Source of the DNA: a virus
DNA length: 30,204 nucleotides
Reading direction: 5' to 3' (one strand)
IMG/VR virus record: IMGVR_UViG_3300028287_000020
Coordinates: 1-30,204 of that record
The first letter of the stretch is position 1, and each line of letters starts with the position of its first letter. Below the pieces are notes generated by a model. That model was not told the DNA's origin, did not search any database, and saw only the letters and a list, made by a program, of their open reading frames with translations. Shown piece by piece: positions 4,354 to 24,081 of the stretch. Both the position numbers and the translations under genes were made by a program.

Positions 4354-6191
4354 AGAAGAACATAGTAATCGGTGCAGACCTCTCTGGTCTTGAGAAGAAG
4401 TTAGACGAACTCATTGATGCATTAAAGGCTTCCCAAACTCAAGCAGACAAGACTGCCGAGAGTATTAACGACATTGCCGATACTACTAAAGACATTGGTA
4501 AGAGTGCTGAAGATAGCCAAAAGGGTATCAAGGGACTTGGTACAGGCTTCAAGGGTTTAGGTGTAGCTATCAAAGCAGCAGGTATTGGTATCTTACTCCA
4601 AGCGATGGGTATACTTAAAGAGTTGTTTGATAACAACCAAAAGACAGTAGACTTCTTTAACACTACATTCAACACTCTACAGGTAGCTTTTAGCGACTTC
4701 ACTAAATGGATTAGTGGTAGTGGGGGTAGTAGTATTGTTAACTTTTTCAAATCCATATTTGAAGACCCTAAACAAGCCTTGTTAGACTTTGCTGATGCGT
4801 TCAAGCGTAACATCCAAGAACGCTTTGAGTCCTATCTTGATACATTAGGATACTTGGCAAGTGCCGTTAAGAAGGTATTTAGCGGTGACTTTGCAGGGGC
4901 AATGAAAGATGTGAAGAACGCAGGTAAGGAATCTTTAGATGTACTTACAGGTGTTAACAATTCTTTTGATAAGGGTAAGAAATTAGTTACCGAAGGGGCA
5001 AAGGCTATCTCTAACTATGTGGTAGAGACAGTTAAGCAAGGTGCGGCAATGACCGAGACTAACAAACAAGCAGAGATTGCAGAGGTATTGATGCAAGGCT
5101 TGATTGAGAAGTATGACCTACAAGCAGAGAAATTAAGACAAGTAAGAGACGATGAACGCTTTACTATTGAGGAGCGAATCAAGGCTAACAATGAACTCAA
5201 AGGAGTATTAGAGGAGCAAGAGAATGCAATGCTTGAGAATGCTCAACGGATCGTAGATGCCAAAGCTCGTCAGCTCTCTTTAGACAAGGATAACATTGAG
5301 TTCCAAAAGGAATACATAGCTGCACAGAATGAGCTTGTAGGAGTTCAAGCACAAGTAGCAGGATTCCGTAGTGAGCAGTTGATGAACGAGATGGCTCTAC
5401 AGAGAGAATTAGTAGACCTTGAAATCAGCAAAGCAGAGAACGCACAAGAGGTATCCGAGATAGAAGCAGAGGCTGCTATTGAAGCAGAGACCAATTTAAA
5501 AAAGCAGTTAACTCTGGAGGAGGAGTTAAACAAGCAGTTGTACGATAGTAGACTTGCAACATTAGAGCAACAAAAATCTCTATACGAAGAAGGCACTCAA
5601 GCCTACCAAGATATGGTTAGTGAAATCAATGTCTTGAATGCAGAGCGTACTGCTCAAGAGGGTGAGGAAGCTAAAAAGAGACGAGAACTTGAACAAGGTG
5701 TTCAACAAGCAAGACTACAGATGACAGGTGATGCCATAGGCGCACTTAATGACCTTGCACAAGCATTCTTATCTGGCAACGAAGAACAAGCAAAGAAAGC
5801 CTTTCAAATAAATAAGGCACTTGGTATTAGCCAAGCGGTAGTTAATACTGCACAAGCCGTTACTGCGGCACTTACGGCAGGAGGTAACCCTGTTAAGTTA
5901 GCTACAGGAGCGCAGTTTGTTGAGGCAGGTATTGCAGCAGCGACAGGTGCAGCACAGATAGCTACCATTGCAAGGCAACAATTCCAAACGAGTGGTAGTG
6001 TAGACACAAACATACAAACACCTACTGCACCAAGTACCTCGCCCCAATTCAATATAGTAGGGGCATCGGGTCAAAATGCTATATTGGAATCGCTACAAGC
6101 GAACCCTATGAGAGCATATGTAGTAGGTAGTGATGTTACCTCACAACAAGAATTAGATAGAAATAGAATTAACCAAGTATCATTCCCATAA
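4344..6191 (+). CDS. Tail tape measure protein
   Basis: A 615-aa protein that sets tail length and is ejected with the DNA. Residues 1-60 are a heptad-rich helix (LSGLEKKLDELIDALKASQ) with repeated polar/Ala spacing. Residues 69-92 form a Gly/Ala hydrophobic segment (GLGVAIKAAGIGILLQAMG) typical of tape measures. Long Glu/Gln/Ala/Lys-rich coiled coil fills residues 220-450, and a second Ala-rich hydrophobic region lies at 495-550. The C-terminal 60 residues are Ser/Thr/Pro-rich. With about 1.5 angstrom per helical residue, 615 aa suggests a tail near 90 nm, a siphovirus-like value. The start at the ATG at 4344 overlaps the small upstream gene; the stop shares TAATG with the protease gene. Confidence 0.85.
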   Translation: MAIEKNIVIGADLSGLEKKLDELIDALKASQTQADKTAESINDIADTTKDIGKSAEDSQKGIKGLGTGFKGLGVAIKAAGIGILLQAMGILKELFDNNQKTVDFFNTTFNTLQVAFSDFTKWISGSGGSSIVNFFKSIFEDPKQALLDFADAFKRNIQERFESYLDTLGYLASAVKKVFSGDFAGAMKDVKNAGKESLDVLTGVNNSFDKGKKLVTEGAKAISNYVVETVKQGAAMTETNKQAEIAEVLMQGLIEKYDLQAEKLRQVRDDERFTIEERIKANNELKGVLEEQENAMLENAQRIVDAKARQLSLDKDNIEFQKEYIAAQNELVGVQAQVAGFRSEQLMNEMALQRELVDLEISKAENAQEVSEIEAEAAIEAETNLKKQLTLEEELNKQLYDSRLATLEQQKSLYEEGTQAYQDMVSEINVLNAERTAQEGEEAKKRRELEQGVQQARLQMTGDAIGALNDLAQAFLSGNEEQAKKAFQINKALGISQAVVNTAQAVTAALTAGGNPVKLATGAQFVEAGIAAATGAAQIATIARQQFQTSGSVDTNIQTPTAPSTSPQFNIVGASGQNAILESLQANPMRAYVVGSDVTSQQELDRNRINQVSFP

Positions 6192-6805
6192 TGAGAATCG
6201 TAGAACTATTATTAGATGAGGAGAGCCTCCAAGCAGGTATCCAAGCCATCAGTATCGTAGAAGCCCCTGCTATAGAGGAGGACTTCGTAGCCCTCAAGGA
6301 AGAGGAGCGTGTAGAATTAAAAACCATTGACGAGGACAAGCGTGTTCTATTGGGTGCAGCACTTGTACCTAATAAACCTATCTATCGTAGAAGCGGTGAA
6401 GATGAGTATTACATCTACTTCTCGCAAGACACGGTTAGAAAGGCAAGTGAATTGTTCTTCATCAATGGCAACCAAAACAAAGCCACATTAGAACACCAAA
6501 TAGATATTACAGGCTTGAGTGTTGTAGAGAGTTGGATCATAGAAGGTGAGCAAGACAAGAGTAAGCTATATGGTATGGACTTACCTGTAGGCACTTGGAT
6601 GGTTAGTATGAAGGTTCACAACGATGAGATTTGGAACGACTATGTGAAGAGTGGTAAGGTTAAGGGCTTCTCTATTGAGGGTTACTTTGTAGATAAGGTA
6701 GAGGCATCTAAACAAGACCCAAAGGAGTTAGAAGCTGAAGAGAAGCTAACTGCTATTAAAGAGCTTATAATTAAAAACCTAACAAAGCAACCCCTAAACA
6801 ATTAA
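6191..6805 (+). CDS. XkdF-like prohead protease (Peptidase S78-type)
   Basis: A 204-aa putative head maturation protease. Diagnostic blocks are VLLGAALVPNKPIYRR (53-67), EYYIYFSQDTVRKASELF (72-89), the block around ATLEHQID (98-105), VVESWIIE (111-118), LPVGTWMVSMKV (131-142) and VKGFSIEGYF (157-166). These match the XkdF/Peptidase_S78_2 family, whose fold is related to the HK97 and herpesvirus assembly proteases. His102 and Ser161 are the likely catalytic pair by position in these motifs. The expected role is to trim scaffold and capsid proteins inside the prohead. It begins in a TAATG overlap with the tape measure stop and is followed by three genes likely to be scaffold or internal proteins. 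The C-terminal 35 residues are charged and helical. Confidence 0.85.
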   Translation: MRIVELLLDEESLQAGIQAISIVEAPAIEEDFVALKEEERVELKTIDEDKRVLLGAALVPNKPIYRRSGEDEYYIYFSQDTVRKASELFFINGNQNKATLEHQIDITGLSVVESWIIEGEQDKSKLYGMDLPVGTWMVSMKVHNDEIWNDYVKSGKVKGFSIEGYFVDKVEASKQDPKELEAEEKLTAIKELIIKNLTKQPLNN

Positions 6806-6811
6806 CATAAT

Positions 6812-7162
6812 ATGAAAAGAATATCGCTACATAAGGTGATGGCTAAATTAGCCGTAGAGCAGAAAGTAGAGCTATCGGTTTGGGACAAGACAAAGTCCGA
6901 CACTAACCTTAAGAAAGGCTACAACCTGTTTGAACAAGCAAGGTCAATAGTGGTTAAAGCTCAAAGAGCTTTTTCGGATGACATAAAAGACATCAAGGGT
7001 GATATTGATATGGTTAAAGACCTTCAAAGTAAAGCGAGAGAAATTGGTGCTGATGACTACGCAAAGTCAATGGATTCAGCGTTAAAAACTCTTAACGCAG
7101 TTTTAGACACCGCATCAATGGAGATGAAGAATTTAGAGAAAGCATTTCAAGCATTAAAATAA
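6812..7162 (+). CDS. Small helical protein of the head-assembly block, function unknown
   Basis: A 116-aa protein starting at the ATG at 6812, six bases after the protease stop. It is almost entirely predicted helix with heptad-like spacing from residue 35 to the end (DIKGDIDMVKDLQSKAREIG, then MEMKNLEKAFQALK), and is highly charged with no Cys or Trp-rich core apart from one Trp. The N-terminal motif VEQKVELSVWD resembles EEQKVELAVGD in the gene at 7748, two genes downstream. Position between protease and scaffold-like protein suggests an internal head protein or assembly factor. I do not recognise a named family. Confidence 0.6.
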   Translation: MKRISLHKVMAKLAVEQKVELSVWDKTKSDTNLKKGYNLFEQARSIVVKAQRAFSDDIKDIKGDIDMVKDLQSKAREIGADDYAKSMDSALKTLNAVLDTASMEMKNLEKAFQALK

Positions 7163-7166
7163 ACAT

Positions 7167-7748
7167 ATGAAATCACAAGAAACATTAGGTAAGATTATGG
7201 AACTGCTTAACCTCCAAGACGAGATTAAGTTAGAGTCTATGAAGTTAGACAACGGTACAGTCATTGAAGCTGAAGCCTTTGAAACTAACCAAGAGGTATT
7301 TATCGTAACTGAAGATGAGCGTATCGCTCTACCTGTAGGTGAGTACACATTGGAAGATGGTCGCATCCTTGTAGTAGCAGAAGAAGGTGTCATTGCAGAG
7401 ATGCGTGATGGAGGTGAAGAAGAAGCACCTGCTGAAGAACCTGCTCAAGAAGAAGCAACTGAAGAAGTAGAGGCTAACGAAGAAGAGATGAGCTACGCTA
7501 CTAAAGAAGAGTTATCTGCCGCAGTAGAAGAGATGAAGGCTATGATTGAAGAGATCAAAGCAATGATGTCTCCTAAAGAAGAAGAGATGGCTGAAGAGGT
7601 TAAGGAAGAGGAAGTAGACTTATCTGCTGACGAACCTGCTGCTAAACCTATCAAGCACTCTCCAGACACGAAACCTGCTGACTTACAGAAGTTCTCTAAA
7701 GGAGCAAGAAAAGACACTCTATCAAGAATCTTTGACAAATTAGGATAA
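7167..7748 (+). CDS. Putative capsid scaffolding protein
   Basis: A 193-aa protein with three parts. Residues 1-80 hold a short N-terminal helix and a beta-rich domain (DNGTVIEAEAFETNQEVFIV, then GRILVVAEEGVIAEM). Residues 82-107 are almost all Glu/Ala/Pro, an acidic linker. Residues 108-150 are a Met/Glu-rich coiled coil (EEMKAMIEEIKAMM). The last 30 residues contain KPIKHSPDTKP and a final amphipathic helix DTLSRIFDKLG. Very acidic, helical proteins with a short basic C-terminal helix directly upstream of the capsid gene are typical phage scaffolds, whose C-terminal helix contacts the capsid protein. The gene is coupled to the next by TAATG. The call depends on composition and position. Confidence 0.6.
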   Translation: MKSQETLGKIMELLNLQDEIKLESMKLDNGTVIEAEAFETNQEVFIVTEDERIALPVGEYTLEDGRILVVAEEGVIAEMRDGGEEEAPAEEPAQEEATEEVEANEEEMSYATKEELSAAVEEMKAMIEEIKAMMSPKEEEMAEEVKEEEVDLSADEPAAKPIKHSPDTKPADLQKFSKGARKDTLSRIFDKLG

Positions 7749-8218
7749 TGAAGAAAGTAGAATCTATTTGGGCTGAACTATCAGCCAAAGCATCTCAAGA
7801 AGTTGAGAACACTCAAGAGGTTGAGTTGAGCGAAGAGCAAAAAGTTGAGTTGGCAGTTGGTGACAATATGCCAAAATTGGCTAATGAAATTGAGTCTACA
7901 TTTAAAACAGTAGATAAACTTTTAGATGAAGCATTCACACCAATTCGTAGAATTGAGAAACAAGTTCAGGAGCTACTTGACCCAAGTTATTTTCAAAAAG
8001 AGTTTAAGACATTTACTACCGCTTTGATGAAGTTAGAGTCTGCTTATGCAGAGGCAAGACAAACGATTCAAAACGCAGAGAGCGATTTAGGCGTTAGCAT
8101 TCCAGAGCCTAAAAATGTTACTGAAGCAGTAAGAGTTTTAGAGGAATTTCAAAGAAGAGAGGAAATGTTAAGGAGAGAGATCAACGAATACTCTCAAGCA
8201 TACAAGAAGTTTAAGTAA
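7748..8218 (+). CDS. Helical head-module protein, function unknown
   Basis: A 156-aa, strongly charged protein starting in a TAATG overlap with the scaffold-like gene. Residues 1-40 hold an Ala/Ser/Glu-rich helix and the motif EEQKVELAVGD, which is shared in weaker form with the 116-aa protein at 6812. Residues 40-156 are predicted helical with a possible coiled coil near the end (VRVLEEFQRREEMLRREINE). It is the last gene before a strong terminator at 8225-8252, so it closes this transcription unit. An accessory scaffold or an internal protein cut by the upstream protease are both possible; I do not recognise a family. Confidence 0.6.
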   Translation: MKKVESIWAELSAKASQEVENTQEVELSEEQKVELAVGDNMPKLANEIESTFKTVDKLLDEAFTPIRRIEKQVQELLDPSYFQKEFKTFTTALMKLESAYAEARQTIQNAESDLGVSIPEPKNVTEAVRVLEEFQRREEMLRREINEYSQAYKKFK

Positions 8219-8224
8219 ATAAGA

Positions 8225-8252
8225 AAGGAGGGCAATGCCCTCCTTCTTTTTT
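8225..8252 (+). terminator. Strong intrinsic terminator, likely bidirectional, before the capsid gene
   Basis: A perfect 9-bp stem (AAGGAGGGC at 8225-8233 and GCCCTCCTT at 8237-8245, loop AAT) is followed by CTTTTTT. It starts seven bases after the stop at 8218. Read from the other strand the stem is followed by TCTTATTT, so it may also stop the convergent antisense gene, whose TAA overlaps the T-run at 8251-8253. Confidence 0.85.
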
Positions 8253-8475
8253 ATTCACCATATGCAGGTGGTATGTGTTTGCCATCGTGGGTTATTAAGT
8301 CTTCACCCTCCCAATGCGTGGAGTAATAGAAGTTTTGTCCATTAGAGTACATCTCAAAATGCTCCAAATAATCTTCTACGGTGTAAATGTCACTTGAATC
8401 AGTAACGAAGCCAGAGGCGCAATAAGGGTTGCTATCCATCTGCTTTAAGTGTTCAAGGTTGTCAATCAATTGCAT
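8251..8475 (-). CDS. Antisense small acidic protein (moron-like), function unknown
   Basis: This is the only minus-strand gene I accept. A GTG at 8508 gives 85 aa, but that codon overlaps the promoter -7 element at 8498-8505, so transcription would start inside it. I therefore choose the ATG at 8475, giving 74 aa beginning MQLIDNLEHLKQ. The protein has 14 Asp/Glu, only two Lys, no Arg and five His, so a net charge near -12. It holds aromatic clusters (YLEHFEMY, NFYYSTHWEGE) and ends HIPPAYGE. There is no membrane segment or signal peptide. It has its own promoter and converges on a terminator, the arrangement of a moron gene. The charge recalls small DNA-mimic anti-defence proteins, which is only an inference. 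I do not recognise the family. Confidence 0.6.
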   Translation of the reverse strand: MQLIDNLEHLKQMDSNPYCASGFVTDSSDIYTVEDYLEHFEMYSNGQNFYYSTHWEGEDLITHDGKHIPPAYGE

Positions 8476-8497
8476 AGTAATTTCGTTTTGGTTTCTC

Positions 8498-8527
8498 CAA
8501 ACATACACAAAAATCTAACACACACAA
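8498..8527 (-). promoter_or_regulatory. Bacteroidetes-type promoter for the antisense gene
   Basis: On the minus strand TTG (8527-8525) is followed after 19 bases by TATGTTTG (8505-8498), an exact match to the Bacteroidetes TTG-N19-TAnnTTTG consensus. The -7 box is preceded by TTTGTG, as in two other candidate promoters here (at 19065 and 25192). The predicted transcript starts near 8490, about 15 bases before the ATG at 8475. Confidence 0.65.
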
Positions 8528-8537
8528 CATTACATAG

Positions 8538-8555
8538 TTAACTTATAAAAGTTAA
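8538..8555. promoter_or_regulatory. Inverted repeat, candidate operator between antisense gene and capsid gene
   Basis: TTAACTT-ATAA-AAGTTAA is a perfect 7-bp inverted repeat, followed directly by a third half-site (AACTTAA at 8558-8564). It lies in the 70-base divergent region between the antisense promoter and the capsid ATG at 8579. It has no T-run and a weak stem, so a protein-binding site is more likely than a terminator. No TAnnTTTG box is visible for the capsid gene here. Confidence 0.4.
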
Positions 8556-8578
8556 TCAACTTAAAAAAGAAAATAAAG

Positions 8579-9499
8579 ATGGCTACATCAATCACAACTA
8601 CATATGCAGGAGAGTTTGCAGGAAAATACATCTCTGCCGCATTGTTATCAGCCGACACTATTGAAGGTGGCGGTATTACTGTAAAACCAAATGTTAAGTA
8701 CAAAGAGGTAATGAAAACTCTTTCTACTAACGCATTGGTAAAAGACGCTGCGTGTGACTTCGCTGACCAAAGCACAGTTACTCTTGCAGAGCGTGTTCTA
8801 CAACCAGAAGAGTTCCAAGTAAACTTGGAATTATGTAAGAAAGATTTCCACAACGATTGGGAAGCAGTTCAAATGGGTTACTCTGCATTTGATTCTTTGC
8901 CTCCTTCATTCGCTGATTTCTTAATCGGTCACATCGCTGCTAAAGTAGCACAGAAGACTGAAGAGAATATCTGGCAAGGTGTTACTGCTAACGCAGGTGA
9001 GTTTGATGGTTTTGAAACTCTATTGGCTGCTGACGGAACTGTAATTGATGTTACAGGTACTTCTGTTACTGCTGCTAATGTTATCACAGAGATGGGTAAA
9101 GTAGTTGATGCTATCCCAACTGCGGTTTACGGAAAAGAAGACCTATACATCTACGCTTCTTCTAATGTTGCTCGTGCATACATCCGTGCTTTGGGTGGAT
9201 TCGGTGCTTCTGGATTGGGTGCTAATGGTGTAAACAACGAAGGTACTACTTGGTTCAATGGTGGTGATCTTGCTTTTGATGGTGTTAAATTGTTCGTTTG
9301 TTCTGGATTGAGCGACAATACAATGGTAGCAGCACAGAAAGGTAACTTGTTCTTCGGTACAGGCTTGTTGGCTGACCACAACGAAGTGAAGCTAATTGAT
9401 ATGGCTGACCTTGATGGTTCACAAAATGTTCGTGTTGTAATGCGCTTTACTGCTGCGGTACAATATGGTATTGGTGCTGACATCGTACTTTACTCATAA
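8579..9499 (+). CDS. Major capsid protein
   Basis: A 306-aa protein forming the head shell. The evidence is position (after protease and scaffold-like genes), length, and composition: Ala/Gly/Val-rich, few Lys/Arg clusters, evenly mixed alpha/beta, with a long N-terminal arm (ATSITTTYAGEFAGKYISAA) and a C-terminal beta region (NVRVVMRFTAAVQYGIGADI). The fold is probably HK97-like, as in other tailed phages with an S78-type protease. Codon use differs from its neighbours: GCT, TCT, ACT and GTT dominate, as expected of a highly expressed gene. The start ATG follows an A-rich leader (AAAAAAGAAAATAAAG) without a Shine-Dalgarno motif. It is bracketed by terminators at 8225 and 9525, so it is probably transcribed on its own or at a higher level. 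Confidence 0.85.
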   Translation: MATSITTTYAGEFAGKYISAALLSADTIEGGGITVKPNVKYKEVMKTLSTNALVKDAACDFADQSTVTLAERVLQPEEFQVNLELCKKDFHNDWEAVQMGYSAFDSLPPSFADFLIGHIAAKVAQKTEENIWQGVTANAGEFDGFETLLAADGTVIDVTGTSVTAANVITEMGKVVDAIPTAVYGKEDLYIYASSNVARAYIRALGGFGASGLGANGVNNEGTTWFNGGDLAFDGVKLFVCSGLSDNTMVAAQKGNLFFGTGLLADHNEVKLIDMADLDGSQNVRVVMRFTAAVQYGIGADIVLYS

Positions 9500-9524: not shown

Positions 9525-9558
9525 GGGCAGGTAGGCATATGCTTGTCTGCCCTTTTTT
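9525..9558 (+). terminator. Intrinsic terminator after the capsid gene
   Basis: GGGCAG (9525-9530) pairs with CTGCCC (9547-9552); the interior also pairs (AGGC with GCTT, loop ATAT). TTTTTT follows at 9553-9558. It lies 26 bases after the capsid stop and would lower read-through into the next gene. Confidence 0.8.
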
Positions 9559-9579: not shown

Positions 9580-10119
9580 ATGGCTTGTGATTTAACTAAA
9601 GGTCGTGCGTTACCTTGTCGTGAATCAGTAGGTGGTCTTAAAGCGGTTTACTTTGTAAACTTCGGTGATTTAGGAACTATCTCTGTTACATCCGATGAGG
9701 TTACTGATATGACAGGAACATTCTCTGCTTACAAGTATGAGCTGAAAGGCACATCTTCAGTAGAGCAAACTATTAACGCTTCTCGTGAGAACGGAACAGT
9801 ATTCTTTGACCAAGCGGTTAGCCTTACTTTGCCTCAATTGAGCAAGGAGGATAACAACGAGATCAAGTTATTGTCTTACGGCAGACCTCACATTATTGTA
9901 GAGGACTACAATGGCAACGCTTACTTGGTAGGTCGTGAACACGGAGCAGATGTAACAGGTGGTACTATTGCCTCTGGAGCAGCTATGGGAGATATGAGTG
10001 GTTACACTCTTACCTTCAACGCTATGGAAGTAACTGCTGCTAACTTCATTGCAGGAGCAACTGATGGCAACCCATTCGCAGGGATGACTTCAGCTACAGA
10101 TACTATTGTTACTTCGTAA
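9580..10119 (+). CDS. Probable major tail (tail tube) protein
   Basis: A 179-aa protein starting MACDLTKGRALPCRESVGG, an N-terminus I associate with an abundant structural protein of Bacteroidetes phages. The C-terminal half contains HGADVTGGTIASGAAMGDMS followed by GYTLTFNAMEVTAANFI, which resembles the last strands of siphophage tail-tube proteins, where a GYTLTF-like strand ends the beta-barrel core. Codon use is biased as in the capsid gene (GCT, ACT, TCT), suggesting high expression, and the gene is flanked on both sides by terminators. A head-decoration protein is the main alternative. Position next to the capsid gene instead of the tape measure is unusual for a tail tube, which keeps confidence moderate. 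Confidence 0.55.
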   Translation: MACDLTKGRALPCRESVGGLKAVYFVNFGDLGTISVTSDEVTDMTGTFSAYKYELKGTSSVEQTINASRENGTVFFDQAVSLTLPQLSKEDNNEIKLLSYGRPHIIVEDYNGNAYLVGREHGADVTGGTIASGAAMGDMSGYTLTFNAMEVTAANFIAGATDGNPFAGMTSATDTIVTS

Positions 10120-10169: not shown

Positions 10170-10201
10170 AGGGCAGCTCTTCGGGGTTGCCCTTTCTTTT
10201 T
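10170..10201 (+). terminator. Intrinsic terminator with a UUCG tetraloop
   Basis: AGGGCAGCTC (10170-10179) pairs with GGGTTGCCCT (10184-10193), with two G-T wobbles, closing a TTCG loop; TTTCTTTTT follows. A C(UUCG)G tetraloop is unusually stable in RNA. It separates the tail-tube-like gene from the portal operon. Confidence 0.85.
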
Positions 10202-10237
10202 GATATAACACTTATACCTCTTGGTGGTTAACCTATT

Positions 10238-19669: not shown

Positions 19670-19976
19670 TAGCCTGTATGCAGGTAAGCATTGGACATTT
19701 AGAAAAAAAACTAAAGATGAATATAAAAAAATCGTTGAAGCAGAATTGGCTCGTTATGACCACCATTTTGCAGAGAGTATGTCTATCCATATTAGGTACA
19801 ATACTCGTGCCGATGTGGACAATCTTGTTCTTGTTTCAAAATTTACTGCTGATACTCTCGTTGCTAACGGATGGATTGCAGACGATAGTCCTAAATACTA
19901 TCACAGGCTCACTATCACTTTTGACAAGAGCGTTGAAAAGAATTATTGTGAAGTTGAGGTTAGACTAAAGTTATGA
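19614..19976 (+). CDS. RusA-like Holliday junction resolvase
   Basis: A 120-aa product using the ATG at 19614; a TTG at 19608 would add two residues. Motifs are LPKTISLNSLYAGKHW (12-27), TRADVDNL (64-71), KFTADTLVANGWIADDSPKY (76-95) and a final beta strand. The acidic residues Asp67, Asp69, Asp80 and Asp90/91, with Lys76, follow the RusA active-site layout, in which clustered Asp residues bind magnesium and cut four-way DNA junctions. Phages use it to resolve recombination or replication intermediates, often before packaging. It overlaps the DUF3310 gene by 56 nt and the methyltransferase by 4 nt (ATGA at 19973-19976). Confidence 0.85.
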   Translation: MILNELNLNLKLPKTISLNSLYAGKHWTFRKKTKDEYKKIVEAELARYDHHFAESMSIHIRYNTRADVDNLVLVSKFTADTLVANGWIADDSPKYYHRLTITFDKSVEKNYCEVEVRLKL

Positions 19977-21121
19977 AAGAGATTAACCAATTAGACTTAT
20001 TCTCTGGTATTGGAGGATTCCATTTGGGATTTGAGAGAGCAGGGTTTAAGGTCAATAGTTACTTCTCGGAAGTAGATAAACACGCAGTAGCGGTATACCA
20101 ACACCAATTTAAAGATAGCACCTATGTCGGATCAGTTACAGATGTTCGGGGAGCAGACCTCCCAAGAATTGACCTCATCACTTTTGGAAGTCCTTGCCAA
20201 GACTTTAGCCAAGCTGGAAGTCGCAAGGGTCTCACAGGAGACCGAAGCAGTCTTATCGCTCAAGCAATACGGCTTATCGGAGAATGTAGACCAAGAGTTT
20301 TTATTTGGGAAAATGTTAAAGGAGCATTCTCCTCAAACGATGGGGCAGACTTTGCGGCAATCCTCCAAGCCTTTGTTGACATTGGGGGCTATAGACTTGA
20401 ATGGCAACTGCTTAATACATCGTGGTTTCTACCCCAAAATAGAGAGCGGATATACCTTGTCGGACATCTTGCAGAAACCAGAGGAGATTGGGGCGGAGTT
20501 TTTCCTATCACAAAAAATGATAGAGTACCTACAGAACTCAACTCATATGAAGAAGAGCAACACGGAAAAGAGGAGCTTTCAAGTGTATCCGCAAGAACAA
20601 TAAGTAGTGCAACCGCAAAGATGGCTCGTGACCAAACTTACATAAAAGTAAAGTCAGCCACTTCTACAGGCTATGACATAGCAACTGAAGGAGATGCTAT
20701 TAACCTTACTGCTATTAACTCTACGACAAGAAGAGGGAGAGTGGGTAAGCAACAAGCCCAAACGCTTGATACATTATGTGAACAAGCGGTAGTCACTCCC
20801 AAGATCATAGGATATTCAAGAGATGCTAAAGGGAAGGTTGTAGACCGACACCTAAAAGACGAGGCAGGAACAATACATACAGGAAGTGGTGGAGGTGGTA
20901 ACACCGACCAATTTGTACAAGACTACCGCATCCGTAGACTAACTCCTATAGAGTGTGAGAGGCTACAGGGATTTCCAGATAACCACACCTCCAAAGGTAT
21001 TTACGATGGAGAGGTCAAGGAGATGAGCAACACTCAACGCTACAAGCAATGTGGCAATGCAGTAACTGTAGATGTAGTACAAGCGATAGCAGAAAAACTA
21101 CATCCAATGTTTGAGCAGTAA
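19973..21121 (+). CDS. DNA (cytosine-5) methyltransferase
   Basis: A 382-aa SAM-dependent enzyme. Motif I DLFSGIGGFHLGFERAG is at 8-24, motif IV GSPCQDFSQAG at 72-82 with catalytic Cys75, motif VI ENV at 113-115, motif VIII QNRERIYLVG at 155-164, motif IX RRLTPIECERLQGFPD at 321-336, and motif X around GNAV at 361-364. The region from about 170 to 315 is the target-recognition domain. It is complete and probably active. No cognate restriction enzyme is recognisable next to it, so a solitary phage enzyme protecting DNA from host restriction is likely. It starts four bases inside the resolvase end. Weak hairpin and promoter follow its stop. Confidence 0.9.
   Translation: MKEINQLDLFSGIGGFHLGFERAGFKVNSYFSEVDKHAVAVYQHQFKDSTYVGSVTDVRGADLPRIDLITFGSPCQDFSQAGSRKGLTGDRSSLIAQAIRLIGECRPRVFIWENVKGAFSSNDGADFAAILQAFVDIGGYRLEWQLLNTSWFLPQNRERIYLVGHLAETRGDWGGVFPITKNDRVPTELNSYEEEQHGKEELSSVSARTISSATAKMARDQTYIKVKSATSTGYDIATEGDAINLTAINSTTRRGRVGKQQAQTLDTLCEQAVVTPKIIGYSRDAKGKVVDRHLKDEAGTIHTGSGGGGNTDQFVQDYRIRRLTPIECERLQGFPDNHTSKGIYDGEVKEMSNTQRYKQCGNAVTVDVVQAIAEKLHPMFEQ
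20124..20603 (+). other. Long nested open frame inside the methyltransferase gene, possible overprinted gene
   Basis: A 159-codon ATG-started frame in the +1 register lies wholly within the conserved half of the methyltransferase. Its translation is not low-complexity (MSDQLQMFGEQTSQ, GYTLSDILQ, EFFLSQKMIEYLQ). However, the methyltransferase motifs force much of this sequence, and long shadow frames are frequent in this window. I list it as a candidate only. Confidence 0.2.
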
Positions 21122-23403: not shown

Positions 23404-23548
23404 CATAGCACCCCTTGCAGGGATTCTAATAGGTGTTAACTATTGGAACTCCACTATGAATGAAGACTTTGAGAATCCCAAGTACCACTCTTTGCAGTTG
23501 TGCTTTGGGATTTTTGCTTTAGTAGTCACTTGGTCAACTGAACAATGA
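23387..23548 (+). CDS. Small membrane protein, 53 aa
   Basis: The frame is open from 23336, but the upstream part is a shadow of the preceding gene, so I start at the ATG at 23387, overlapping that gene by 17 nt. The product has two hydrophobic segments, IAPLAGILIGVNYW and LQLCFGIFALVVTW, separated by a polar acidic loop (NEDFENPKYHS). It is probably an inner-membrane protein with two spans. The function is unknown. It is coupled to the sigma-factor gene by an ATGA overlap (23545-23548). Confidence 0.55.
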   Translation: MNFAIDIAPLAGILIGVNYWNSTMNEDFENPKYHSLQLCFGIFALVVTWSTEQ

Positions 23549-24081
23549 TAACTGTATTAGACCTTCTTGCAGGGCATCATAAGGAATGGATCAAGATGGT
23601 TCACAAGTTCGGTGCAGGTAGCTATGCCGAAGACATAGTGCAAGAGATGTACATACGACTCAATAAGTATGTAGAGAACCCAGAACGCATTATGTACAAG
23701 AACCAACCCAACAAGCTCTTTGTGTGGGTAACCCTTCGTAATATGACGAGGCAGTTCCAAAACAAGAAAGACTTGATGGTATACACAGGCGATATGGTTG
23801 AGTACGATATTGCAGAGGAAGAGTTTGACCGAGTACAAGCAGAGGGCTTTGAGAAGTTAATAGACAAGGTTTGGGAGGTTATGGAAGACCTCCATTGGTA
23901 TGACCAAAAGATGTTTGAGGTATACCACAAAACCGATATGTCAATGAGAGACATAGAAAAGGAAACAGGCATTAGTCTATTCTCCATATTTGATACACTT
24001 AAAAATTCTAAAGAATATGTCCAAGAAAAAATCAACGAAGACTACGAAGACTACCAAAACGGTGAAAGCGAAAGAATCTAA
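23545..24081 (+). CDS. RNA polymerase sigma-70-like (ECF-type) factor
   Basis: A 178-aa protein. Residues 27-73 (YAEDIVQEMYIRLNKYVEN, then LRNMTRQFQNK) fit sigma region 2, with the ED-x-VQE-x-(F/Y) motif that binds the polymerase clamp. Residues 107-162 (YHKTDMSMRDIEKETGIS, then FSIFDTLKNSKEYVQEKI) fit region 4, the helix-turn-helix that reads the -35 box. The linker is acidic and the C-terminal tail (EDYEDYQNGESERI) is charged. It is the best candidate for redirecting host RNA polymerase to late promoters, consistent with the absence of host-type promoters before the structural genes. A transcription-factor role without full sigma activity is the alternative. The next gene overlaps it by 65 nt. 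Confidence 0.75.
   Translation: MITVLDLLAGHHKEWIKMVHKFGAGSYAEDIVQEMYIRLNKYVENPERIMYKNQPNKLFVWVTLRNMTRQFQNKKDLMVYTGDMVEYDIAEEEFDRVQAEGFEKLIDKVWEVMEDLHWYDQKMFEVYHKTDMSMRDIEKETGISLFSIFDTLKNSKEYVQEKINEDYEDYQNGESERI

Follow-up and report, generated by a model that had tools for sequence, protein, structure and literature searches.

The stretch analysed here, called the window below, is the IMG/VR virus record IMGVR_UViG_3300028287_000020 at its full length of 30,204 bases. Directly before the gene that we take for the major capsid protein lies a short minus-strand gene encoding an acidic protein of 74 amino acids (aa), and all other long open reading frames that we read as genes run rightward. The small gene has a terminator-like hairpin behind it and a promoter-like sequence in front of it, and the latter overlaps a two-box plus-strand element that points into the capsid gene (Table 1). 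A sequence-only reading of this DNA had described the antisense acidic gene and its flanking signals in an otherwise rightward-reading window; this observation was confirmed, the rightward orientation for the other long reading frames taken as genes. The host is probably a Bacteroidetes bacterium, since the closest cultured relative of the phage infects Nonlabens/Persicivirga and since a relative of the capsid protein (78% over residues 9–137) is found in a metagenome-assembled genome titled Bacteroidetes bacterium (G001).

Table 1. Positions in the window of the genes and signals discussed in the text (nt, nucleotides)
Feature	Position	Strand	Basis or remark
Head maturation protease gene	6191..6805	+	Peptidase_S78_2, E 2.5e-14
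CTAACA-N16-ATTAAC, second copy of the plus-strand element	6779..6806	+	5 nt before ATG 6812
Acidic scaffold-like gene	7167..7748	+	phrog_24921; second insertion site precedes it in some relatives
Upstream gene, left border of the insert	7748..8218	+	N-terminus conserved, rest hypervariable
Terminator-like hairpin, both directions	8224..8246		predicted to end the minus-strand gene; turned towards the late operon upstream
74-aa acidic accessory gene (YGE family, our label)	8251..8475, stop included	-	6 distinct variants, mostly synonymous divergence
Predicted A-rich leader, 18 nt	8476..8493	-	start predicted at 8493
-7 element, TATGTTTG	8498..8505	-	sequence; TANNTTTG kept in most capsid-site cassettes
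CTAACA-N16-GTTAAC, predicted phage late promoter into the capsid gene	8515..8542	+	overlaps the minus-strand promoter
TTG, candidate -33 element	8525..8527	-	separated by 19 nt from the -7 box; falls within the plus-strand element's spacer
Major capsid protein gene (putative)	8579..9499	+	phrog_11320 (unknown function), phrog_1623 (virion structural protein); located between the protease gene and the portal gene
Terminator-like hairpin downstream of the capsid gene	9530..9551	+
Terminator-like hairpin before the third copy	10170..10193	+
ATAACA-N16-GTTAAC, third copy of the plus-strand element	10205..10232	+	5 nt before ATG 10238, downstream of the 10170-10193 terminator
Sigma-70/ECF (extracytoplasmic function)-like factor, candidate reader of the late promoter	23545..24081	+	TIGR02937; P12024S homologue

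The slot before the capsid gene

The 74-aa gene is protein-coding and under purifying selection. Its family comprises six distinct variants including that of the window, three of them 81–95% and two 50–54% identical to the window's protein. The reading frame has been kept with mostly synonymous change: the ratio of nonsynonymous to synonymous substitution rates (dN/dS) is 0.11–0.48 in 14 of 15 pairs, and one pair is saturated. The frame retained in relatives and the synonymous bias, on which the sequence-only reading had let its case depend, are therefore both found. In the scans made, homologues occur only in this phage group, where they are reversed and stand directly before the capsid gene. 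None was found in 50,697 phage records at E 1 or in a scan of cellular genome contigs, and none in 395 genomes of the phylum of G001, a weak search run without a positive control.

Relatives of the capsid protein were found in at least 595 stretches of viral contigs, and the best 80 loci were kept. The spacer before the capsid gene could be measured in 70 of them; L058, whose contig starts inside the capsid gene, was excluded as an artefact but had been counted among the 19 long spacers of the scan, and two pairs of loci are alike (L002 and L003, L080 and L081). The site is empty, with a spacer of 21–41 bp, in 54 loci and occupied in 16, ten of these with minus-strand genes and six without. 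For the two counts that follow we added loci fetched because they carry the conserved promoter block, which inflates the occupied share; "distinct" means that identical stretches were removed, and close relatives are still included.

From 74 distinct loci we set aside three without an upstream border. Among the 71 counted, the window included, 47 have a spacer below 100 bp without terminator and plus-strand motif, 23 have a long spacer with both, and one, L005, is an artefact (long without either element, its upstream gene just 88 aa). The presence or absence of the gene between the upstream gene and the capsid gene of close relatives, which the sequence-only reading had proposed to look for, is thus borne out. 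The rules of this count were changed after a first result. The first version asked for perfect stems and set a threshold of 70 codons for the upstream gene; of its 66 distinct loci 6 had both elements, 49 neither and 11 the promoter motif only, and G-U stems and chance reading frames were observed among the misses. The final count admitted G-U pairs as well as G as the final letter of the first box, and it demanded ATG reading frames of 95 codons. A further count, restricted to 70 distinct loci with near-complete capsid genes (partial ones such as L084, L099, L101, L105 and L107 were left out), gave 49 empty sites, 13 cassettes, 6 gene-less scars and 2 truncated loci.

Each of the 23 bordered inserts has a plus-direction terminator at its far end and the motif [CA]TAAC[AG]-N16-[GA]TTAAC at its capsid end. 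The layout is terminator, minus-strand gene or genes, a Bacteroidetes-type minus promoter and the plus-strand element. The window's hairpin is near-symmetric and terminator-like on both strands, with folding energies of -19.6 and -20.2 kcal/mol (46-nt stretches, z about -5), as its earlier description as a strong near-symmetric terminator implied, and by sequence and folding the gene has a terminator of its own, as a moron does. The hairpin passes as a plus-direction terminator, the direction tested in the 71-locus count, in 23 of 23 inserts. In the minus direction, tested separately and later, 14 of the 15 inserts with a minus-strand gene pass, L105 being the exception, and all eight scars fail. 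This is the pattern to be expected of a minus-direction signal that works for the minus-strand gene and degenerates once that gene is lost. In the scars (L059, L061, L071, L075, L080, L101, L103 and L107) the hairpin is fused to what is left of the promoter block, its upstream half; the gene and the -7 box are gone and the minus-direction terminator is lost, and the plus-direction terminator and the plus-strand motif are kept.

Behind similar promoter flanks the cargo is exchanged. At the capsid site we found five cargo sets (the names are our labels), namely YGE alone or with SFNQL, EITKRF, VIHCEI, MKTPFQ with FKYNGA, and MKTAMQ with FKYNGA, so that two of the five share a gene. In some relatives the scaffold-like gene is preceded by a second site, occupied by MKPTIE with VIHCEI (L015/L016) or by MSVIHF (L027), and the VIHCEI family therefore occurs at both sites. 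Four of the nine cargo families were searched in the 50,697 phage records, and none of the four gave a match. Inserts there end in the same kind of hairpin and have the plus-strand motif 35–36 nt before the start codon; for this hairpin in L015 and L027 a plus-direction terminator was found and a minus-direction one was not, in a test that cut off the tail. Over five cargo families dN/dS is 0.07–0.31 in 24 of 28 pairs. In a quick capsid tree of 68 rows at least eight changes between empty and occupied sites are needed, seven of which strongly supported branches make unavoidable; the sister row of the window, L009, is an empty site. The insert is therefore, judged from these comparisons, almost certainly an exchangeable accessory cassette. 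That one and the same site is seen empty, with different fillings and emptied again supports the moron layout that the sequence-only reading had proposed; the plus-strand promoter-like element, the scars and the second insertion site are what it missed.

The overlapping promoter-like elements

The pattern [CA]TAACA-N16-[GA]TTAAC occurs three times in the window, always on the plus strand, against 0.05 occurrences expected, and the other spacers from 8 to 25 gave no plus-strand match and one minus-strand match (N14). Across the capsid loci the N16 pattern was counted at 75 distinct sites, every one on the plus strand. A start codon follows at a distance of 5 nt in 53 of them and of 35–43 nt in 21, and the remaining site stands before no start codon. 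Other spacers gave 19 matches at N10, presumably a tandem TAACA-C-TAACA repeat (these were not counted apart), and two unexplained matches at N8. The motif is present in 12 of 14 whole records (none in G400 and G403), where a reversed-pattern control gave 0 and one of 31 matches is on the other strand (G408:15993). It had been read off these loci before the spacing was tested, which makes the N16 result partly circular for the capsid and first-variable-gene sites. In many relatives the conserved block beside the minus promoter recurs ahead of the first variable head gene, at 5 nt from its start codon, and no antisense gene was found at these copies.

The element thus resembles a late promoter in having two boxes that keep a fixed spacing, lie before late genes and are confined to one strand, the motif having been derived from part of the same loci. 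We consider it very likely to be a promoter, and the simplest reading is that it is probably a late promoter of the phage. This reading accounts for both elements being present in every bordered insert and retained in the scars, since a terminator before the capsid gene makes a new start behind it necessary. The copies 5 nt before an ATG would give leaderless or nearly leaderless late mRNAs. The sigma-like gene matches TIGR02937 near full length with E 9.5e-10 and 38.3 bits, under the curated cut-off of 42.9, and Pfam Sigma70_r2 with just E 0.055; its product is homologous to a P12024S gene annotated as Sigma-70 region 2 (24% identity, E 1e-9). This gene is a candidate regulator of the late genes, and we rather expect from these matches that the phage's own sigma-like factor reads the plus-strand element.

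The predicted minus-strand promoter has weight because it is conserved in relatives and not by its statistics in the window, where TANNTTTG alone is at chance level (29 found, 27.4 expected) and TTG-N19-TANNTTTG is not significant by itself (2 found, 0.55 expected). The box TANNTTTG is present in 11 of 14 capsid-site cassettes, or in 12 of 17 when L084, L099 and L105 are added. The transcription start was placed at 8493 by letting the -7 box span -12 to -5 (PMC9723704). Expression of the 74-aa gene by way of the host sigma factor, before the late genes, is plausible from this promoter. The variant box TTTCTTTG is seen in L054, L099, L105, L108, L109, L115 and L118, and in L054, L099 and L108 it gives rise to an inverted repeat, GTTTC..GAAAC, where transcription presumably starts. 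The leader GAAACCAAAAC was tried as a cassette-specific signature and rejected; the scan (16 stretches) also matched L085, L088, L092, L093, L094 and L095, which are other sites.

The genes between protease and capsid gene (7748-8218, 6812-7162 and their equivalents in relatives) share an N-terminus beginning MKKVESIWAELSAK or MKRISLNKVMAKLA and are hypervariable in the rest; 98 distinct proteins that carry this signature were grouped by their C-terminal parts into 40 families (BLASTP E 1e-5, single linkage). They recall the internal proteins of T4 with their capsid-targeting sequences. Within phrog_24921 the C-terminal part aligns with the product of the scaffold-like gene and the N-terminal part with the protease gene. 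The long reading frame 19973-21121 presumably resembles a DNA cytosine methyltransferase, going by a motif.

Comparison with phage P12024S and with morons

The nearest cultured relative found is the Nonlabens phage P12024S (GenBank JQ823122; laboratory host Persicivirga/Nonlabens IMCC12024), whose capsid protein is 35% identical to that of the window. Inside its plus-strand late region lie four small minus-strand genes, _04, _07, _40 and _43. Three of the four have TATATTTG, each divergent from a plus-strand gene with CGTTA[AC]TA. This box, chosen after reading the upstream sequences of P12024S, occurs six times on the plus strand (1.4 expected) and three times on the minus strand, and in all six plus-strand occurrences it starts exactly 12 nt before an ATG. 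The plus-strand motif of the window is absent from P12024S. The two phages have in common small minus-strand genes in the late region, a divergent promoter-like box and a sigma-70-like gene; they differ in the cargo (by family scans), in the sites and in the upstream half of the promoter. From its sequence P12024S may be regarded as a partly independent replicate of the layout. The gene _07 matched 41 records, 37 of them not Nonlabens phages. Among the 21 non-Nonlabens rows listed there are 14, all Klebsiella or Escherichia phages, in which the match coincides with or adjoins a DNA primase annotation. This location of the _07 homologues at most suggests that slots of this kind carry early-type genes.

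The cassette resembles morons in that one or two accessory genes with promoter-like and terminator-like signals of their own are present or absent between two conserved genes of close relatives. It is unlike them in being reversed, in having a hairpin readable both ways and a plus-strand element like a restart promoter, and in lacking a deviating GC content, which is usual, though not universal, for morons. In Pseudomonas Mu-like phages region G adjoins the head genes. These phages have swappable accessory genes, with anti-CRISPRs in region G, and a gene h between the protease-scaffold and major head genes (PMC4378225). Both region G/gene h and the slot of the window hold swappable small genes; no relationship between the two was found, no search aimed at one having been made. 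The exclusion genes of phage Fc02 are arranged differently from the cassette (PMC9936078). We found no description of antisense cassettes with restart promoters in flavophages in the literature excerpts covered, the P12024S genome report lying outside this search, and no transcription study of these phages was among the matches listed in the literature searches.

A proposed reversed cassette with a restart promoter, and the alternatives

We interpret the locus as a reversed, exchangeable moron cassette with a built-in restart promoter and give this explanation as a whole a probability of about 0.72. The cassette would have been inserted between the variable gene of the head operon and the capsid gene. 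Host RNA polymerase would transcribe the minus-strand gene from the TTG/TANNTTTG promoter, hence early, into a short transcript from about 8493 to 8224 that overlaps no plus-strand gene. The hairpin at 8224-8246 would end this transcript and also stop the late transcript arriving from upstream, and the plus-strand element would restart transcription into the capsid gene, perhaps by way of the phage's own sigma-like factor; with such a restart promoter the insertion would cost the phage little. The two predicted promoters share positions (8498-8527 minus, 8515-8542 plus), and a polymerase bound to either may therefore block the other, so that the cassette would be off as late transcription starts; we see an even chance for this early/late exclusion. 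In some hosts the cargo would be of help in the early phase of infection, most likely by acting on host defences or host physiology. By analogy with accessory genes of other phages (PMC4378225), counter-defence is a candidate function of the cargo to which we give slightly less than even odds, and for the 74-aa protein itself a role in counter-defence or host takeover is the likeliest one, again at a little under even odds. The architecture is well supported by the comparisons of loci. For a moron, the reversed and apparently self-repairing form is unusual. Of the earlier interpretation the moron layout is what was supported, and the interpretation as a whole only in part.

Several observations weigh against this explanation. 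The added block-carrying loci raise the occupied share, which is 16 of 70 in the capsid scan alone. Unlike classic morons, the 74-aa gene matches its surroundings in GC content, with 0.404 against 0.405 for the window as a whole (the capsid gene has 0.420 and the upstream gene 0.369). Among the 28 dN/dS values two are about 1.05 (at low dS), one is 0.48 and one could not be computed. The cargo proteins searched gave no functional match. The minus promoter has TTTCTTTG instead of TANNTTTG in 3 of 14 capsid-site cassettes (5 of 17 with the three added loci), and just two of the 14 (L029 and L065) fit TAHHTTTG. In the TAHHTTTG promoters of Flavobacterium johnsoniae G is virtually absent at -10 and -9 (PMC6847099), and the -7 box of the window has the avoided G at -9. 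What had been called an exact Bacteroidetes promoter is TTG-N19-TATGTTTG, and the word exact holds only with a reservation, given the disfavoured G. In F. johnsoniae 87% of the predicted transcripts have leaders above 10 nt (PMC6847099), so that the near-leaderless mRNAs which would result from an element 5 nt before the ATG at two sites are unusual. The hairpin at 9530 stands just before a gene at 9580 without a plus-strand element, and readthrough may therefore suffice. A terminator was seen, in our own test, at just two of the four P12024S antisense genes.

One alternative, unlikely in our view, is a regulatory module that is kept for its terminator and promoter and makes capsid transcription independent, with the antisense gene as a passenger. 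For it speak the gene-less scars, 6 of the 70 distinct loci and 8 of the 23 inserts, which retain the plus-direction terminator and the motif. It is opposed by the purifying selection on the 74-aa gene, by a cargo that varies within a constant promoter shell and by the 47 of 71 loci that do without the module.

The plus-strand motif might also be a recombination linker or a regulator-binding site that marks the borders of modules. It does stand where exchanged modules begin or end, at the capsid site, the scaffold site and the first-variable-gene site, and homologous recombination would be helped by such similar copies. We nevertheless judge this improbable, as the two boxes keep a fixed 16-bp spacing on one strand only in the loci, stand, at two conserved sites, 5 nt from the ATG, with a terminator in front of one of these sites, and have a counterpart in the similar box at a fixed ATG distance in P12024S.

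A somewhat different proposal concerns the protein, which could be an acidic DNA mimic or anti-CRISPR protein that imitates DNA or blocks a nuclease. The sequence-only reading had noted such a likeness, and its counts of 14 Asp/Glu, two Lys and no Arg agree with ours. The negative charge holds for the whole family, with an isoelectric point of 4.05–4.33 in all six variants of this small protein, and the swappable genes of the Pseudomonas Mu-like phages include anti-CRISPRs (PMC4378225). As that reading had also said, no family is recognised for the protein: searches gave no usable match, the best being phrog_7563 (unknown function) at E 0.0021–0.017, the lower value for one variant. A structure model built from the six sequences had a mean pLDDT (predicted local distance difference test score) of 69. 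With this low-confidence model Foldseek gave nothing at E 0.001 against the PDB and a viral library, and a second comparison with 17 chains reached at best Z 3.2; because the confidence is low, the absence of a fold match says little. Among the eight other cargo families Lys and Arg outnumber Asp and Glu in four (EITKRF, VIHCEI, FKYNGA and MSVIHF), equal them in SFNQL and MKTPFQ and are fewer in MKTAMQ and MKPTIE. Because most other cargo is neutral or basic, acidity is, by these compositions, not what the slot selects. Of the earlier proposal the charge is borne out; a DNA mimic seems quite improbable to us. An antisense RNA regulating a neighbouring late gene, which the minus-strand orientation within a plus-strand operon might suggest, is hardly credible, as the protein frame is conserved and the transcript predicted from 8493 to about 8224 stays within the interval between the genes ending at 8218 and starting at 8579 and is complementary to neither.

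The reversed cassette with its proposed restart promoter may have a wider meaning. We tentatively propose, at less than even odds, a platform common to flavophages in which "reversed morons" place early genes in a late operon and the host sigma-A promoter of the cargo overlaps a late promoter read by a phage sigma factor. The overlap would act as an automatic switch from early to late, and the late promoter would repair the operon, so that cargo could be swapped at little cost; the same logic would be realised with different DNA in P12024S. A late promoter and its likely sigma factor are thereby predicted, and the prediction can be tested in a cultured phage: in P12024S early minus-strand transcripts should start just downstream of TATATTTG at _04, _07 and _40, and late plus-strand transcripts after CGTTAATA. 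The slot would further give a sequence handle on fast-changing accessory genes, perhaps with counter-defence functions, in the well-sampled phages of aquatic Bacteroidetes.

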